DNA of 64,000 bases from Kyrpidia spormannii (GTDB lineage: Bacteria > Bacillota > Bacilli > Kyrpidiales > Kyrpidiaceae), in NCBI RefSeq assembly GCF_002804065.1, contig NZ_CP024955.1, forward strand, positions 3,286,001-3,350,000. Direction: 5' to 3'. Position 1 is the first letter of the stretch. Each line of letters begins with the position of its first letter. This document shows positions 15,890 to 24,764 of the stretch, one piece after another. The notes beneath the pieces were generated by a model. The model saw only the letters and a program-made list of their open reading frames with translations, searched no databases and was not told where the DNA came from. Position numbers and translations under genes: made by a program.

Positions 15890-16393
15890 TCAATAATCAT
15901 CCTCACTGTCTTCAAAGTCCAAGTCATCACTGTCGTCGATCTCGTCGTCATCGGGTTCCAAATCATCCAGTTCCTCGAAGTCGTCCACATCTTCCTCGTC
16001 CACGACCTCATCTTCGGATTCCTCATCCTCGACTTCGTCGATCTCCACCAGTTCGAGATCTTCGTCCTCTTCTTCCTCGTCGTCCACGACCGCGGCCGCC
16101 TTCTTGCCAAGGCTGCGGTCTGCGGTCTTATCGGTGGGATACCAGCGTTTTAATCCCCAAACGTTGCCGCCCAAGTGGATAAACCGCCCGTCCACGTTGA
16201 TATCCGTGAACAAGCGGGCAATGACCTCATCCAGCTCCTCGTCGGAGAGGCCCTTCAATTGCGCCACGTCGGCCAACAAGTCGCGGTAGTGAGCCGGTGT
16301 GCCCCCTTCCCGCAGAACTTCGTACGCCAAGTCGACAAACGACGCTTCTTCCAGACGTTCGGGATCCCACCCCGCCACGGCTTCCCCCGCCAT
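15890..16393 (-). CDS. rpoE: RNA polymerase delta subunit
   Basis: Delta is a Firmicutes-specific RNA polymerase subunit that speeds recycling and tunes initiation selectivity. The 167-residue product has the folded HARE-HTH N-domain (SFVDLAYEVLREGGTP, LFTDINVDGRFIHLGGNVWGL) and, from about residue 100, a long run of Asp and Glu typical of delta. The acidic tail is repetitive, so the opposite strand shows spurious open frames. Position between pyrG and the acyl-CoA dehydrogenase cluster matches Bacillus. Confidence 0.95.
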   Translation of the reverse strand: MAGEAVAGWDPERLEEASFVDLAYEVLREGGTPAHYRDLLADVAQLKGLSDEELDEVIARLFTDINVDGRFIHLGGNVWGLKRWYPTDKTADRSLGKKAAAVVDDEEEEDEDLELVEIDEVEDEESEDEVVDEEDVDDFEELDDLEPDDDEIDDSDDLDFEDSEDDY

Positions 16394-16469: not shown

Positions 16470-16499
16470 ATTATAACACACCGCCCTCCGCCTTGCCAG
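16470..16499 (-). promoter_or_regulatory. Sigma-A promoter of rpoE
   Basis: Perfect TATAAT (16470-16475) with CTGGCA (16494-16499) 18 bases upstream, minus strand, overlapping the 3' end of the MeaB gene. This separates rpoE from the fatty-acid cluster transcript. Confidence 0.6.
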
Positions 16500-17478
16500 C
16501 GGAAAAGTCCACGGAATGAAGTATCTCGTCCACCACGTCCTCGAGGCCCCGCCTTCCGTTTGCCACTTCTTCCAAAACCCTTTCCCAATCCGGCCGCGCC
16601 GCTTTCCATTGTAGGAAAGCCCCCTGAACTCGGGCTAACACCTGGTCCCACACGGCGTCTTCCACGCGCCGCAACCGCCGTTTTCGGCCTTCCCCGCTCT
16701 CTTCCAAGTAGGTCCGGTGGCGAAGGATTTGTTCCCACAGGTCCTCCACCCCCCGGCCTTCCGATGCCGAAGCAGCGAGCACCGGGGGCCGCCACCCCCG
16801 GCGATGGGCGAGGTCCACCATGTAGCGAATGAGGCGGACCGTCCGATCGGCCCCGGGGAGGTCGGCCTTATTGACTACGAAAATGTCGGCAATCTCCATG
16901 ATCCCCGCCTTGAGCATCTGGACCTGGTCCCCCCCCGCCGGGCCCAGAGCGAGAATGACCGTGTCCACCGCATGAACCACGTCCAGTTCCGACTGCCCGA
17001 CCCCCACGGTCTCGGCGATGACCACATCGTAACCGGCAGCATCGAGAAGATCCAGTACATCTTTCGTTGATCGGGCCAATCCCCCGAGGCGGCCCCGGGT
17101 GCCCATGCTTCGGATAAAAACCCCCGGATCCAAGGCATGATCCACCATTCGAACCCGATCTCCCAGCAGTGCCCCTCCTGTAAACGGACTGGTGGGATCC
17201 ACCGCCACCACCCCGACCCGATGACCCAACCCCCGCAACAACCGGATCAAGCGGTCGGTCAGTGAACTTTTCCCCACCCCCGGGGGCCCCGTCAAACCGA
17301 TTCTGTACGCTCCCCCGGCCACCGGGCGGAGGGCGTTCAGAAGCGCCGCGGCCTCGGGAGCCTCATCCTCCACCCACGTGATCGCCCGGGCGATGGCCCG
17401 GGAATCCCCGGACCTTATCCGTTCAACCCATCGCTCCACACTTTGCGGCACCTTGGACACCCCTCGCCCCGGACTCAA
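16471..17478 (-). CDS. meaB: MeaB/ArgK-type GTPase (methylmalonyl-CoA mutase chaperone family)
   Basis: G3E-family P-loop GTPase. Motifs: Walker [10 protein letters not shown] near residue 64, [20 protein letters not shown], Walker B region [11 protein letters not shown], and the base-recognition VVNKADLPG. Characterised relatives gate and repair B12-dependent acyl-CoA mutases such as methylmalonyl-CoA mutase. No mutase subunit lies in this window, so its partner must be elsewhere. The TTG start at 17478 overlaps the acyl-CoA dehydrogenase stop as TTGA; a GTG at 17460 is an alternative. Last gene of the beta-oxidation cluster. Confidence 0.88.
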
Positions 17479-18617
17479 TCCCGCAACAGTTCCCTGGCCA
17501 CTACCATGCGCTGAACCTCGTTGGTCCCCTCGTAGATCTGAGTGATCTTCGCATCCCGCATAAACCGTTCCACGGGGTATTCGCGAATATACCCATACCC
17601 GCCGAAGATCTGGACCGCCTCGGTGGTCACGTACATGGCCGTATCGGACGCGTACATCTTCGCCATCGCCGAGGCCTTGCCGTAGGGCAGCCCCCGATCC
17701 TCCAGCCAGGCCGCCTGATAGGTCAGCAGCCGCGCCGCCTCCACCCGGGTGGCCATATCGGCCAGCTTAAACTGAATCGCCTGAAACTGTCCGATGGACT
17801 TGCCGAACTGCTCGCGTTCTTTCGCATGAGCGACGGCGGCCTCCAAGGCACCTTGAGCAATCCCCACCGCCTGGGCGGCGATTCCGTTTCTCCCACCATC
17901 CAGGGTCATCATGGCGATCTTGAATCCGAACCCTTCTTCGCCCAGCCGGTTCTCCGCCGGGACGATGCAATTCTCGAACACCAACTCCATCGTTGGAGAG
18001 GACCTTAAGCCCATTTTCTTTTCTTTTTTGCCAAAATGAAACCCGGGCATCCCTTTTTCTAGGATAAATGCCGAAATTCCCCGGTGGCGCTTTTCCCGGT
18101 CGGTGGTGGCAAATACCACGTAAATATCCGCTTCCCCGCCGTTGGTGATGAAAATTTTGCTCCCGTTCAGTACGTAGTGGTCTCCTTCGCGGACGGCGGT
18201 GGTCCGCAAATTGGCCGCATCGGTGCCCGCTCCGGGTTCGGTCAACCCATAGGCCCCGATCTTCGTCCCTTCAGCCAGGGGGCGCAGATACTTCCGCTTT
18301 TGCTCCTCCGTCCCAAAGCGATAGATGGGCCACGAAGCCAAACTGGTGTGCGCCGAGATGGTCACCCCGGCCGACGCATCTACCCGAGATAGCTCCTCAA
18401 CGGTAATCACGTAGGTCAACATGTCGAGACCGGCGCCGCCGTACTCCTCCGGCCAGGGGATACCCGCCAATCCCAACTCCGCCATCTTGTCAAAAATTCC
18501 TCGATCAAAGCTCTCCTGTTCATCCCGTTCCGCCGCCCCAGGTGCCACCACTTCCTCAGCAAAGGCCCGGACTGCTTCCCTCATCTGTTCTTGTTCCTTG
18601 GTCAGAACAAACTCCAT
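17475..18617 (-). CDS. acdA: Acyl-CoA dehydrogenase (first copy)
   Basis: FAD enzyme that oxidises acyl-CoA to trans-2-enoyl-CoA, passing electrons to electron-transfer flavoprotein. The 380 residues include [13 protein letters not shown] and [15 protein letters not shown] (FAD and substrate region), the middle beta domain, and the C-terminal catalytic base Glu in [13 protein letters not shown]. It belongs to the short/branched chain type. About half identical by eye to its upstream neighbour, so the pair arose by duplication or serves different chain lengths. Separated from it by 19 bases and overlapping the MeaB gene. Confidence 0.93.
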
Positions 18618-18636: not shown

Positions 18637-19785
18637 TCATTGCGCCGACCCGAGCACGTGTTTGGCCACGACCATGCGCTGGATCTGGTTCGTCCCCTCG
18701 TAGATCTGGGTCACTTTCGCATCCCGCATGTAGCGCTCCACGGCGTAATCTTTGATATAGCCGTACCCTCCGTGAAGTTGCACCGCGTCGACAGTCACAC
18801 GCATCGCCGTATCCGAAGCGTACAATTTCGCCATCGCCGCTTCTTTGGCGCAGGGCAGTCCCTTGGCCCGCATGGTCGCCGCCCGGTATACCATTAGCCG
18901 CGCCGCTTCGATCTCTGCAGCCCGGTCCGCGAGGATAAATTGCACCCCCTGAAAATCCCCGATTCTCCGGCCGAATTGTTGTCTCTCCTTGACATAGGCC
19001 CGGGCGAGTTCCAAGGCTCCTTCTGCAATACCCAGAGCTTGCGCGGCAATGCCGATCCGCCCGCCGTCCAACAACGACATGGCTACGCGATACCCCTCCC
19101 CTTCACCGCCGAGGCGAGCACTGTCGGGAACCCGACAATCTTCAAAGATGAGTTCCGTGGTCGCTGACCCATTCAGTCCCATCTTGCGCTCTTTTTTACC
19201 GATAATCAATCCCTGATTGTCCGCTTCGACCAAAAATGCGGTGATCCCCCGCCGCCCGGCTTCGGGGTTGAGATTCGCAAAGACGAGGTACAGATCGGCC
19301 TCGCCGCCATTGGTGATAAATACTTTTCGTCCGTCAATCCGATACCCTCCCGGTTCTCGACGGGCCCGGGTTTGAAGAGAGGCGGCGTCTGAACCCGCCT
19401 GGGGCTCGGTCAAGGCGAAAGCGCCGAGAAGCCGCCCTGAGGCCAACCCCCGGAGGTATTTATCTTTCTGGTCCTCTGAGCCGTGGTATAACACGGACAG
19501 GGCCCCCAAAGAGGTGTGCACCGCCAGGATGACGGCAACCGCCGCGGATACTTTTGCCACCTCCTCGATGGCCAGCACGTAGGAGACAAAATCCGCCCCC
19601 ACGCCTCCCCATTCTTCCGGGATCGGAATCCCGAGAAAGCCAAGATCTGCCATCTTCTGGATGATATCCCGGGGAAACCGGTCTTCTTCGTCGATTTGCG
19701 GGGCCCTGGGGCGAATCACCTCTTCGGCAAACCGCCGAACGGCGTCCCGGATTTCCCGCTGTTCCTCGGTCAGTAAAAGGTTCAT
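18637..19785 (-). CDS. Acyl-CoA dehydrogenase (second copy)
   Basis: Second FAD acyl-CoA dehydrogenase of the cluster, 382 residues. It shows [42 protein letters not shown] and the catalytic Glu in [13 protein letters not shown]. The ATG at 19785 follows GAGGGGGATCGGGC. Upstream, two palindromes (GATTCA-TT-TGAATC and TGAACG-CT-CGTTCA) lie where a fatty-acid repressor could bind. The 245 bases between it and hbd suggest a separate transcription start for acd2-acdA-meaB. Substrate chain length cannot be read from the sequence. Confidence 0.92.
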
Positions 19786-19834: not shown

Positions 19835-19839
19835 CTGAC

Positions 19840-19853
19840 TGAACGCTCGTTCA
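19840..19853. promoter_or_regulatory. Operator-like palindrome TGAACGCTCGTTCA upstream of acd2
   Basis: Perfect palindrome with six-base arms around CT, 55-68 bases before the acd2 start. Its AACGnnCGTT core recurs at 24230-24239 before fadF, the other likely transcription start of the beta-oxidation cluster. TetR-type fatty-acid or acyl-CoA repressors use sites of this size. The regulator is not in the window. Confidence 0.55.
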
Positions 19854-20030: not shown

Positions 20031-20888
20031 TTACTGATCGTATCGATAGAATCCCCGGCCGCTCTTCTTTCCCAGCCACCCGGCGTTGACATATTTTCGC
20101 AACAGGGGGCATGGCCGGTACTTCGGATCCCCGAGACCTTCATGAAGGACTTCCAGGATGGCTAAACATGTATCCAGGCCGATAAAGTCTGCGAGCTGCA
20201 GGGGCCCCATCGGGTGGTTGGCCCCGAGTTTCATGACCGTATCCACATCCTCGGGGGCCGCTACCCCTTCATATACGCAGTAGATCGCCTCGTTGATCAT
20301 GGGAAGGAGGATACGGTTCGCGACAAAGCCGGGGTAATCGTTCACTTCCACAGGAACTTTCCCCATCTGCTCAGCAAGCTCTTTCACCGCGGCAAAGACA
20401 TCATCCCGGGTGGCGAGTCCCCGGATGACCTCCACCAGTTTCATCACCGGGACGGGGTTCATAAAATGCATCCCGATCACTTGTTCGGGCCGCTTTGTGA
20501 CGGCGGCGAGCTCGGTAATCGGCAGGGAAGACGTGTTCGAGGCGAGAATCGCCCCAGGTGGGCACAGCCGGTCGAGGGTTTCAAAGATGCCCTTTTTGAT
20601 CGTGAGGTTTTCCGTCGCCGCCTCCACGACGATGTCCACCTGAGCCCCGTCCTCCAGCCGGACGACGGGGTGAATCCGATCCAGGACCCCCTGGTGCTGA
20701 TCCGCCGTCATGCGCCCCTTTTCCACCTGGCGATCCAAGTTGGCGCGAATCCGCCCGACCCCTTTTTCCACCAGGGCTTCAGAAATATCCTGCAGCCAGA
20801 CTTCGAGTCCCGACTGGGCTGCCACTTGGGCGATTCCGCTGCCCATCTGCCCGGCTCCAACCACCAGCATTCGCCCGATATTCGCCAT
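20031..20888 (-). CDS. 3-hydroxyacyl-CoA (3-hydroxybutyryl-CoA) dehydrogenase
   Basis: NAD-dependent oxidation of 3-hydroxyacyl-CoA to 3-ketoacyl-CoA. The 285-residue single-domain-pair enzyme shows the Rossmann motif [25 protein letters not shown], the catalytic His in [15 protein letters not shown], and the C-terminal helical domain with [20 protein letters not shown] chose the ATG at 20888 (MANIGRML); an ATG nine bases upstream is only two bases from AAGGAG. Lies 19 bases downstream of the thiolase. A B. subtilis counterpart is MmgB. Confidence 0.93.
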
Positions 20889-20907
20889 GAATCCCATTAC
20901 TCCTTTC

Positions 20908-22098
20908 TCAAACCTCGATCAGAATGGCGTCTCCTTGGGCCGCCCCGCTGCAGATCGCGGCAATGCCAAGGCCCCCACCCCTGCGCCGAAGTTCATAAAT
21001 GAGGGTCATGAGAATCCGCGCCCCACTGGCTCCGATGGGATGCCCGAGGGCCACGGCGCCGCCATTGACATTGACCTTTTCTTCCAGGGCTTCCGGGGAC
21101 ATCTCCAAAAGCTTGGCGCTTGTCAACACCACCGCCGCAAAAGCCTCATTGAGTTCGAACAGCCGGATGTCCTCCAAGCGCCGCCCGGTTTTTTTCAGCA
21201 ACTTCTGGATTGCCAGCGCCGGGGTGGTGGCAATGTACGCCGCTTCCGCCCCGACTTCAGCGTGGCCATGGATCACGGCGAGCACTTCTTTGCCTTCCGA
21301 CCGGGCTGTCTCCTCGTCCATCAAAACCAGAGCTCCGGCCCCGTCGTTCACCCCCGGGGCATTGCCCGCCGTCACCGTCCCGTCCTTGGTGAAGACCGGC
21401 GGCAGAGCCGCCAGTTGTTCCAGGCTGGTGTTTCTCCGGGGCGCTTCATCCTGTTCCACCCGGCGGACACTCCGCTTCTCCTGAACCTCCACAGGTACGA
21501 TCTCCTCGCCCAGCCGGCCGGCGTCCATGGCAGCCACCGCCCGGCGGTGGCTGCGCAGCGCCCAGCGATCCTGGTCTTCCCGGGAGATCCCGTACTCACC
21601 GGCCACTCGGCTGCCCAGGGCCGCCATGTGCACGTCGTGAAAGGCGCACCAGAGTCCATCGTACATCATGAGATCCACCATCCGGCCGTGACCCATGCGC
21701 AACCCTTCCCGGGCTCCGAAAACGGCATAAGGAGCCTGGGACATGCTCTCCATCCCTCCGGCCACCACGGTGCGGGCGTCCCCGGCCCGGATGATCTGGT
21801 CCCCGAGGGTCACCGCCCGGAGTCCCGAAGCGCACACTTTATTGATCGTCTCCGTCGGGAGGTCCCAAGGAAGTCCCGCCAGCCGGGCCGCCTGTCGGGA
21901 CGGGATCTGGCCCGCCCCGCCCTGAAGCACCATCCCCATGATTAGTTCGTCCACCTCATCCGGGCCCACCCCTGCCCGGTCCATCGCCCCGCGAATCGCC
22001 GTGGCGCCGAGCTCCACCGCTTTTTTCGCCGCCAGTGCCCCGCCGAGCTTGCCAAAGGGCGTCCGAGCCGCCCCCACCACCGCTGTTCGCCGTGCCAC
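20908..22098 (-). CDS. Acetyl-CoA acyltransferase (thiolase)
   Basis: Thiolytic cleavage of 3-ketoacyl-CoA, or the reverse condensation of two acetyl-CoA. The 396 residues carry the acylated Cys in [12 protein letters not shown], the [15 protein letters not shown] segment, the His in [10 protein letters not shown] and the second Cys in [13 protein letters not shown]. The GTG at 22098 (VARRTAVVG) has GGGAGG about eight bases upstream; the open frame extends 41 codons further without a fitting start. Between fadF and hbd, so it acts in the same beta-oxidation route. Confidence 0.93.
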
Positions 22099-22177
22099 CC
22101 GCCATCCTCCCTCTCCGAAACGCAAACGGACCCGGGCAGGCCTTGACGTGCGCCCGCCCGGGAACCCCCGCGCGTTC

Positions 22178-24199
22178 TTAAGATTTACCGTTGACCGACT
22201 GGTCCAGCATCTCCACCACATCGAAGGTTTTCATTTCGTCGGCGACGCCCTTAGCTTTGGTCCCGTCTTCCATCATAATCAGGCAGTACGGGCAAGCGGA
22301 CGCAATGGCCTGGGCGCCGGTTTCCATCGCCTGTTCGGTGCGCATGACATTGATGCGGTTTCCATGTTTCTCTTCTTTCCACATGCCGCCGCCCCCGCCG
22401 CCGCAGCACATGCCCCGCTCCCGGCTGCGCTCCATCTCTACGAGATGGACGCCGGGGATCGATTCGAGGATAAACCTCGGGGCGTCGTACTCGCCGTTGT
22501 ACCGCCCCAGGTAGCAGGAGTCGTGGTAGGTCACGTCCATGTCCAGCTCTTTTTCCGGCTTGAGCTTTCCTTCCCGAACGAGGTCCGCCAGGAGTTGGGT
22601 GTGATGGATCACCGGCACCTCAAGGCCGAATTCCGGGTACTCGTTCTTCAAGGTGTTGAAGCAATGAGGATCTGCCGTGATGATCTTTTTGAACTTATAG
22701 TTCTTCAGAGATTCCACGTTCTGCTCGGCCATCTGTTGGAAGAGAAACTCGTTGCCGAGCCGCCGGGCCGATTCGCCGCAACATTCTTCGGCGCTGCCGA
22801 GGATGGCAAAATCCACCCCGGCTTTCTGCAGGAGACCCACCAGGGTCCGGGCCACCTTGTTGTTTCGGTCGTCGTAAGAGGCGGCACACCCTGCATAGTA
22901 CAGGTATTCCACCTCTTCCCCTTCTTCAAGGACTCGCACGTCGAGACCTTCCGCCCAATCCCCCCGGCTGGAGCGGCTGCGCCCCCAAGGGTTCCCTTGG
23001 CGCTCGAGGTTGTTCAGGGCCCGGCTGACCTCCGGTTCCATTTTACCTTCTGTGAGCACCAGATACCGACGCAGGTCGATGATTTTATCGACGTGCTCGT
23101 TGAAGACCGGGCAGGCTTCCTCACAAGCCCGGCAGGTGGTACAAGCCCAGATCTCGTCCTCGGTGTACACGTCCCCGATTAGAGACGGAATCTCGGTGGC
23201 CACCGCCACTTCGGCGTCCCCCGCCCCGGCCCCGGCTGCAGCCATCTGCCGCTGGGCCAAAAGGGTGTCCCCGACCTGCACAAGATGATCCCTCATCTTG
23301 AGAATCAGATATTTTGGCGACAAGGGTTTGCCGCTGAGCGTAGCCGGGCAATTGACGTGACACCGGCCGCACTCGGTACAAGCGTACCCGTCGAGGAGCT
23401 GCTTCCACGTGAACTGGTCCACCCGGCCGACCCCGAACTCCTCCACCGACTCGTCCTCCAGGTCGAGGGTCTTCAACTTGCCCGGCGAGCGGAGTTTGCG
23501 AAAATAGACATTAAACGGCGCCGCGATCATATGGAGGTGCTTGGACCGGGGAATATACACGAGAAACCCGAGCAAGGTCAGAATGTGCACCCAGACGAAG
23601 ACCTCGTGGAATCCCCGCAACACACCCGGCGACCCGCCGGCAAATACGGTCCCAAGCCACGTGGCGATGGGAATCGCCGCACTCGGAGCCTCTTCATGGA
23701 GGGCGATCTGAAGGCCGCTCACCAGCAGATCCGAGATCACCAATATCGTGATGAGTCCGAGAATCACCCCGGCCTCAATGGAAATGTCGAGGCGCATGGG
23801 CTGCAATACGTACCGGCGATAGAAAGCCACGCCGATGGCCGCCAGCACCAATAAGGAGAACAGTTCGTGCAAAAACGCAAACCAAGACCATTCCCCATAG
23901 GGCAAGTGCACGCCAAAGTACTGATAGGCGATAAAATCCAAGGTGCCAAAGGAAAGGATGATAAATCCCCAGAAAATCACAAAATGCCCCAGCCCCGCCG
24001 GTTCGGCGATCACCTTCCCCTGGGCGAGGACGTACTTCAGAAAACTCTTGATGCGTTCTCCCGTGTTATCCGTCCGGTCCTCCTCGGCGCCCAAACGAAG
24101 ATACCGATAGCGCTTCGAGAAAGCCGTCCAAAAGAGGTACACGGAGGTCACGAGGAGCGCCAGAAAGATCACGATGCGCAGGACCGCTAACGCTGCCAC
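22178..24199 (-). CDS. fadF: FadF-type membrane Fe-S oxidoreductase (electron-transfer flavoprotein:menaquinone)
   Basis: A 673-residue respiratory protein. Residues 1-215 hold about six transmembrane helices like the NarI cytochrome b subunit, with candidate heme histidines at 72, 111, 201 and 205. Two ferredoxin-type 4Fe-4S motifs follow: Cys274, 277, 280, 284 and Cys353, 356, 359, 363. Then two CCG domains, around Cys438/473/474 and Cys562/598/599, as in heterodisulfide reductase HdrB. B. subtilis FadF (YwjF) beside acdA has this design. The family is thought to pass electrons from acyl-CoA dehydrogenases through ETF to menaquinone. First gene of the cluster. Confidence 0.92.
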
Positions 24200-24229: not shown

Positions 24230-24239
24230 AACGACCGTT
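24230..24239. promoter_or_regulatory. Operator-like core AACGACCGTT upstream of fadF
   Basis: Ten-base AACG-AC-CGTT palindrome core, 31-40 bases before the fadF start. It shares the AACGnnCGTT form with 19842-19851 before acd2. The flanks here are less symmetric. Confidence 0.45.
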
Positions 24240-24266
24240 CGTTTTCTTCCCTTCAACACTTTGCCT

Positions 24267-24300
24267 GGTTAAAATGAATGATTCACCATTCATTTTAACC
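24267..24300. promoter_or_regulatory. FadR-like operator upstream of fadF (14-bp perfect inverted repeat)
   Basis: GGTTAAAATGAATG and CATTCATTTTAACC are perfect 14-base arms around ATTCAC. The inner 18 bases, TGAATGATTCACCATTCA, follow the outer halves of the B. subtilis FadR box (TGAATGA...CATTCA). Located 68-101 bases before fadF. FadR is a TetR-family repressor released by long-chain acyl-CoA. Confidence 0.65.
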
Positions 24301-24418
24301 GTCCCCTCACTTTTGGGCAATGGGTTGTCTTGGAACAAGCCAGAAAAAACCGAGGTGTCGGTCCCGGCCCGATGTGCGGAAACAGTTCGGCAATTCACGC
24401 ACATGGCCCTGCTCCCGC

Positions 24419-24751
24419 TCAGCGAGAAGATCCCCGGCGGCGGGTCTTCGGCGCCCCCTGAGCGGAACCTCCCACGCCCCGGGATGACCCTCCCGCCTCC
24501 CGACGCGGGTTCGATCCGGGACCCGGTGGCGACCCGGAGGAAGCCGGCTTTTTCCCCGACGGTCCTTCTTCGGTCAATACCCGGATGCGCTGCCGGAGCC
24601 GCCCGCCGATCTGCCCGCACACCTTGGACGGAAATCCTCCCCAGTAGCCATCCACCGGAGGTTTCACCCCGAGTTCCCGGGCCAACTCCCACTTCATCCG
24701 CTCCATCATTTGCCGCCGCCGAAGCTCGTCCGGGTCGCGTGATGGATCCAC
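24419..24751 (-). CDS. Small acid-soluble spore protein, alpha/beta-like, with long basic tail
   Basis: A 110-residue product. Its core (about residues 8-58) has MKWELARELGV, a DGYWGG turn, and IGGRLRQRIRVL, the two-helix pattern of alpha/beta-type SASPs that coat and protect spore DNA. From about residue 62 a tail rich in Gly, Ser, Pro, Lys and Arg follows, absent from usual SASPs of 60-95 residues. GTG start at 24751 with GAAGGAGG upstream. It lies 13 bases after the argS stop, so a forespore promoter would have to be inside argS. The tail could be real or reflect a frame change near the 3' end. Confidence 0.7.
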   Translation of the reverse strand: MDPSRDPDELRRRQMMERMKWELARELGVKPPVDGYWGGFPSKVCGQIGGRLRQRIRVLTEEGPSGKKPASSGSPPGPGSNPRREAGGSSRGVGGSAQGAPKTRRRGSSR

Positions 24752-24764
24752 CCCGATCCCTCCT

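Follow-up and report, generated by a model that had tools for sequence, protein, structure and literature searches.

A FadR box and a second, PfmR-type operator-like site upstream of fadF in Kyrpidia spormannii and its relatives

Two operator-type palindromes precede a fadF-type gene of Kyrpidia spormannii, and we asked whether this gene answers to FadR alone or to a second repressor as well. The window analysed is a 64-kb stretch, positions 3286001-3350000 of the 3.35-Mb genome under study (G000), and coordinates below are those of the window unless they carry the genome prefix or are given as genome positions. The gene, on the minus strand (22178..24199, GTG start at 24199), encodes a 673-aa Fe-S oxidoreductase with two CCG stretches (4Fe-4S); it is called fadF on the grounds of its domains and of synteny with rpoE. 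Further down the same strand lie genes for an acetyl-CoA acyltransferase (thiolase, 20908..22221), a 3-hydroxybutyryl-CoA dehydrogenase (hbd, 20031..20897), two acyl-CoA dehydrogenases (18637..19785 and 17475..18617), a MeaB-type GTPase (16471..17478) and the RNA polymerase delta subunit (rpoE, 15890..16393). The profile match of the thiolase starts at residue 44, so its true start is probably inside the listed open reading frame. According to the available part of the source, rpoE is the last gene of the Bacillus subtilis fadF-acdA-rpoE operon (PMC4525379).

The first-pass annotation had described a perfect 14-base inverted repeat at 24267-24300, and this was confirmed: the arms (24267-24280 and 24287-24300) are 100% complementary around a 6-nt loop, and apart from this 14-6-14 repeat (no strand assigned) the window has no perfect 14-bp inverted repeat with a loop of 3-12; 40 dinucleotide shuffles of the window gave a mean of 0.025. 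Its inner part had been likened to the B. subtilis FadR box, a resemblance that the comparison bears out, as the core at 24275-24292 (no strand assigned), TGAATGATTCACCATTCA, has a single mismatch to the FadR box TGAATGANNNNTCATTCA (13/14 fixed bases) and is kept upstream of fadF in relatives. The outer arm bases are changed in the sister species while the TGAATGA/TCATTCA core is kept in relatives, and we therefore regard the core as the operator. The GTG start of fadF lies 75 bp beyond the end of this core on the minus strand. A fadF promoter predicted by consensus scan alone (24292..24320, minus strand, 9/12 matches) comprises a -35 element TTGCCC (24320-24315) and a -10 element TAAAAT (24297-24292), the latter inside the promoter-side arm (24287-24300). 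The roughly 460 bp separating the palindrome from argS (24301-24764) gave no Rfam matches.

A repressor for this box is encoded in the genome. Nine TetR_N matches were found, and among the four on which the FadR model was run one passes, so that the fadR homologue whose presence had been proposed as a check does exist: the gene at 742 kb (G000:742480-743124) reaches 263.6 bits with NCBIfam NF053878 (cut-off 200). The protein carries a TetR_C_4 domain, and its best solved relatives are 1vi0 (E 1.1e-58) and 3whb (E 1.4e-57), the latter deposited under the title 'Fatty acid metabolism regulator protein'. Behind fadR lie etfB and then etfA. Genome-wide, TGAATGANNNNTCATTCA occurs with at most one mismatch at three places, namely fadF, fadR and 2291803 (shortly before a homoserine dehydrogenase gene), and the best palindromic copies are those of the fadR-etfB-etfA and fadF promoters, with 13/14 fixed bases each. 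Two mismatches add five further places; the one at window position 19836 precedes an acyl-CoA gene, and 1107688 and 3143322, the two looked at of the other four, are within genes that by eye are not fatty-acid genes. The expected clustering of FadR boxes at beta-oxidation genes thus holds only at high stringency, with two of three places at one mismatch or fewer; at two mismatches one of five places precedes an acyl-CoA gene. The strict FadR regulon of G000 looks small, with two fatty-acid promoters at one mismatch or fewer, and so the gene cluster thought to be fatty-acid-induced narrows, as far as FadR is concerned, to fadF-thiolase-hbd; the next acyl-CoA dehydrogenase operon has a different box.

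To place the FadR box in a wider setting, we sampled fadF upstream regions from 90 of the 111 same-class genomes in which FadF was matched (the 30 with the best matches and 60 hand-picked across families; one copy was used where a genome has two). A FadR box of at least 16/18, a score that counts N positions as matching and equals at least 12 of 14 fixed bases, was present upstream of fadF in 63 of the 90, compared with 0.22% of shuffled upstreams. Such a box was found in 62/82 genomes with a FadR match and in 1/8 without (G083), and a box of even 15/18 was absent from fadF in 12 of the 82. Before fadR itself, a box of at least 15/18 occurs within 200 bp in 30/30 loci (the best 30 of 104 genomes with a match), and in two genomes (G048 and G007) fadR precedes fadF by at most 3 kb, the two genes sharing a strand. 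FadR control of fadF here is ordinary and well supported.

The second motif that had been pointed out, AACGACCGTT at 24230-24239, is real and forms part of a longer site, AACGACCGTTCGTT (24230-24243, no strand assigned; minus strand AACGAACGGTCGTT), hereafter box B. This PfmR-type operator-like site lies in the fadF leader, downstream of the predicted promoter, and is an imperfect 14-bp palindrome (12/14 positions palindromic by hand count). It is the sole exact match to AACGANCGTTCGTT in the genome; at up to three mismatches this pattern was seen 15 times in the window against 16.8 expected, no more often than by chance, so the motif alone is weak, and what support there is comes from relatives. 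A stricter own-genome pattern, written after some of the sites had been seen, matches exactly at seven places, including fadF, fadR, a site upstream of a TetR gene next to icmF and an enoyl-CoA hydratase gene (2871094); the remaining three are 62542 (by eye in a purR-like gene), 961603 and 1265586 (by eye just behind an acyl-CoA dehydrogenase gene). With one mismatch it is moderately commoner than its reversed control (65 vs 43 on the forward strand, 61 vs 37 on the reverse), and the proposed genome scan is accordingly weak evidence for box B. Box-B-like sites lie at the start of the enoyl-CoA hydratase gene (2871094), before a thiolase gene (837739) and upstream of the icmF-linked TetR gene (2159514). 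CGGTC forms the centre of the box at fadF and fadR as well as in the site ahead of the icmF-linked TetR. Both boxes are present in the fadF promoter and in the fadR promoter, though in different geometry; the order at fadR is TTGACA, box B (AGCGAACGGTCGGT) in the 18-bp spacer, TAGAAT and the FadR box. Compared with the published PfmR operator of Thermus thermophilus, box B at fadF has 11/13 fixed bases; the 74 sampled upstreams from genomes lacking a PfmR-like TetR score no higher than 10.

The protein we call PfmR-like (this and 'icmF-linked TetR' are working names) is encoded at G000:112711-113286; it is of the TetR_C_24 kind, is not FadR, and has as its best solved relative 3vpr (E 6.1e-32), which we take to be PfmR. 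Of 26 genomes with a match at E <=1e-35, the sixteen reaching 47% identity or more were classed as having it, an identity cut set after the list had been seen; the ten weaker ones (35-41%) were taken as PaaR-like by assumption and counted as lacking it, and in one of the sixteen (G079) the match covers the first 141 residues only. Box B of at least 12/14 stands at fadF in 13/16 genomes with this TetR and in 5/74 without (Fisher 2.4e-9, a value that is too small, as the consensus was written after several sites had been seen and the genomes are not independent). The five carriers without it are three members of family f21, G071 and G065 (family f13, whose other genomes have the TetR), and box B of 12/14 is absent at fadF in G014, G092 and G034 (11/14) despite the TetR. 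Before fadR, box B of at least 12/14 was found in 8/14 loci from genomes with the PfmR-like TetR and 1/16 from genomes without.

Since our own consensus had been written after looking, the fadF comparison was repeated with the published Thermus PfmR operator, whose best upstream scores averaged 11.0 of 13 in genomes with the TetR and 8.3 in those without (Mann-Whitney 4.6e-8; because the genomes are related, both tests overstate significance). The published REPSA consensus for PfmR, which is very degenerate, did not separate the two groups at fadF (p 0.61). Several box-B-like sites in relatives fall within genes and were excluded from support. The guess that two regulators might act here thus gains support from an independently published motif and from co-occurrence with a second TetR: fadF likely has a second repressor, for which the PfmR-like TetR would be the best candidate. 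A literature search of partial coverage found no account of PfmR-like control of fadF in Bacillus relatives.

The balance between the two boxes differs among lineages. In families f1, f7, f13 and f35, fadF is preceded by a box of the form ACCGACCGGTCGGT, either alongside the FadR box or in its stead. Two of the three genus members and family f35 have the two boxes together at fadF; box B without a FadR box was found there in two genera of f7 and in the third genus member (G040, 86% complete). The own fadR gene of G040 (L066) does have a FadR box. Within f7, fadF is preceded by box B but by no FadR box in the three genomes with the PfmR-like TetR (two genera); the two sampled genomes lacking this TetR show the reverse, a FadR box without box B. 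In G014, a PfmR-like TetR (47% identity), etfB (by eye), etfA and fadF follow each other on one strand, ATCGACCGGTTGGT lies just before the TetR, and no FadR match was found at E<=1e-40; the PfmR-like TetR here appears to occupy FadR's place in a TetR-etfB-etfA-fadF operon. This operon (L273, G014:C45:1-12000) is near genes that by eye encode a thiolase, an SDR and a metallo-hydrolase. These genomes form a natural series along which the repressor of a given promoter seems to be exchanged for another. Whether control of the ETF/fadF electron-transfer branch is passing, or has already passed, from FadR to a PfmR-like repressor in this lineage is a matter on which we lean somewhat towards doubt, offering it as a tentative possibility. 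Also in f7, ACCGACTGGTCGGT precedes a 3-hydroxyacyl-CoA dehydrogenase gene in three genomes (one protein of the three was checked). Upstream of the PfmR-like TetR itself, 3/16 regions reach 11/14 of ACCGACCGGTCGGT (two from f7, one from f15), the sites seen by eye in G000 (f1; AACGAACGATTGGT) and in f34 are looser matches, and all five f35 upstreams have no box-B-type site; autoregulation is poorly supported.

A third type of site, box C (TGACTGAACGCTCGTTCA, 19836..19853, no strand assigned), precedes the acyl-CoA dehydrogenase operon of the window and contains ACTGAACGCTCGTT. It is operator-like and of the type seen with the icmF-linked TetR (G000:2158699-2159349), whose gene adjoins the fused mutase gene icmF: CGCTC-centred sites such as AACGAGCGCTCGGT or ACCAAACGCTCAGT lie close before this TetR in 15/23 upstreams viewed (30 loci fetched), and in the other 8/23 no site close to the gene was seen. 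Box-C-like sites also precede an acyl-CoA dehydrogenase gene (1081632) and an HMG-CoA lyase gene (1389880) in G000. The icmF-linked TetR probably controls the acyl-CoA dehydrogenase operon adjacent to fadF-thiolase-hbd, and the box-C sites would, by inference, fit branched-chain or short-chain acyl-CoA control. An 18-mer identical to box C lies upstream of fadF in G018. The region upstream of the icmF-linked TetR (L059, G000:C1:2158699-2159527) holds two different boxes, ACCAAACGGTCGTT and ATCGAACGCTCGCT, which suggests that two TetR repressors may control it.

Taken as a working model, the fadF-thiolase-hbd operon probably has a double operator, with FadR at the 18-bp box and a second TetR, most likely the PfmR-like one, at box B. 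The model builds on the observed sequences and positions of the boxes, their conservation, the orthology of FadR and the co-occurrence with the second TetR. FadR would bind its box over the predicted -10 element and the likely start point and so block transcription, until long-chain acyl-CoA released it, as in B. subtilis. Box B, 31 bases further into the leader, would be bound by the second repressor, which probably brings in a further signal, acyl-CoA or related, and also acts on fadR-etfB-etfA, where box B lies in the -35/-10 spacer. Binding, repression, effectors and the choice of the second TetR at box B are what we infer from these observations.

The FadR-box, box-B and box-C sequences are alike, so that box B can be assigned in more than one way. 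The fadF site (24230-24243) reaches 12/14 as a box B and 11/14 as a box C, and the icmF-linked TetR is also present in G000. That this protein, rather than the PfmR-like TetR, binds box B is an unlikely alternative, to which several observations nonetheless lend some weight: G054, G129, G010 and G102 are among the relatives whose fadF is followed, several kb downstream and on one contig, by the gene for this TetR, box C-type sites occur upstream of fadF in families f19, f20, f21 and f31, and in two f35 genomes (G147 and G103) the fadF box reads CGCTC on the other strand. However, sites of the icmF-linked TetR centre on CGCTC (the 15/23 upstreams above) whereas box B in G000 centres on CGGTC, and in f7 no match to this TetR at E<=1e-25 was seen in two of the three box-B genomes.

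It is considerably less probable that FadR alone binds both boxes with different affinity. Both are TetR-type palindromes present at both promoters, as such a scheme would have it, but box B at fadF is rare without the PfmR-like TetR (the 5/74 above), and 15/16 fadR upstreams from genomes without that TetR have no box B of 12/14. We give next to no credence to the palindrome being a terminator or RNA element instead of an operator: the 131-nt leader RNA does fold better than its shuffles (z -4.63), the palindrome forming a hairpin, yet no terminator was called at the palindrome, an Rfam search up to E 1 gave no match, and relatives with altered outer arms retain the core. The terminator and riboswitch readings were rejected on the absence of a terminator call and of an Rfam match. 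A PaaR-like TetR was also considered as the box-B binder and rejected, the sites before it being of the ANCAAGCG type.

FadR control of fadF is already known from B. subtilis, and the second site is a modest new twist. It suggests that FadR, the PfmR-like TetR and the icmF-linked TetR may divide acyl-CoA catabolism among them in these bacteria. Box B is of a similar 14-bp operator type to that of T. thermophilus TTHA0973, which we take to be PaaR. In the accessible part of its description, the TTHA0973 operator is AACnAACGTTnGTT (PMC6651687). A difference is that the PaaR-like TetR of G000 sits in a phenylacetate-like cluster (by eye), with AGCAAGCGATTGTT before it.

The closest parallel for the FadR side is B. 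subtilis, for which the part of the source available gives FadR boxes both at fadF-acdA-rpoE and at the operon containing fadR (PMC4525379). As there, G000 has a repressor above the FadR cut-off, the same box and the same target gene fadF, with rpoE further down the same strand, and its fadR is preceded by a box and followed by etfBA. FadR, the delta subunit and the gene order point to a Bacillus relative. Unlike in B. subtilis, lcfA or fadB was not seen by eye beside fadR, and the stretch from fadF to rpoE also holds a thiolase gene, hbd, a second acyl-CoA dehydrogenase gene and meaB. A separate site, box C, precedes the acyl-CoA dehydrogenases, and strong FadR boxes at fatty-acid genes number just two in G000, both with box B beside them. 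For the second site, the parallel is T. thermophilus PfmR (TTHB023), whose operator TACCGACCGNTNGGTN and targets in fatty-acid metabolism are reported in the part of the source at hand (PMC7022988). Like that system, G000 has a box matching the operator at 11/13 fixed bases and a candidate TetR with 3vpr as its best solved relative; unlike in that distant bacterium, the candidate targets in G000 include fadF and fadR-etfBA.
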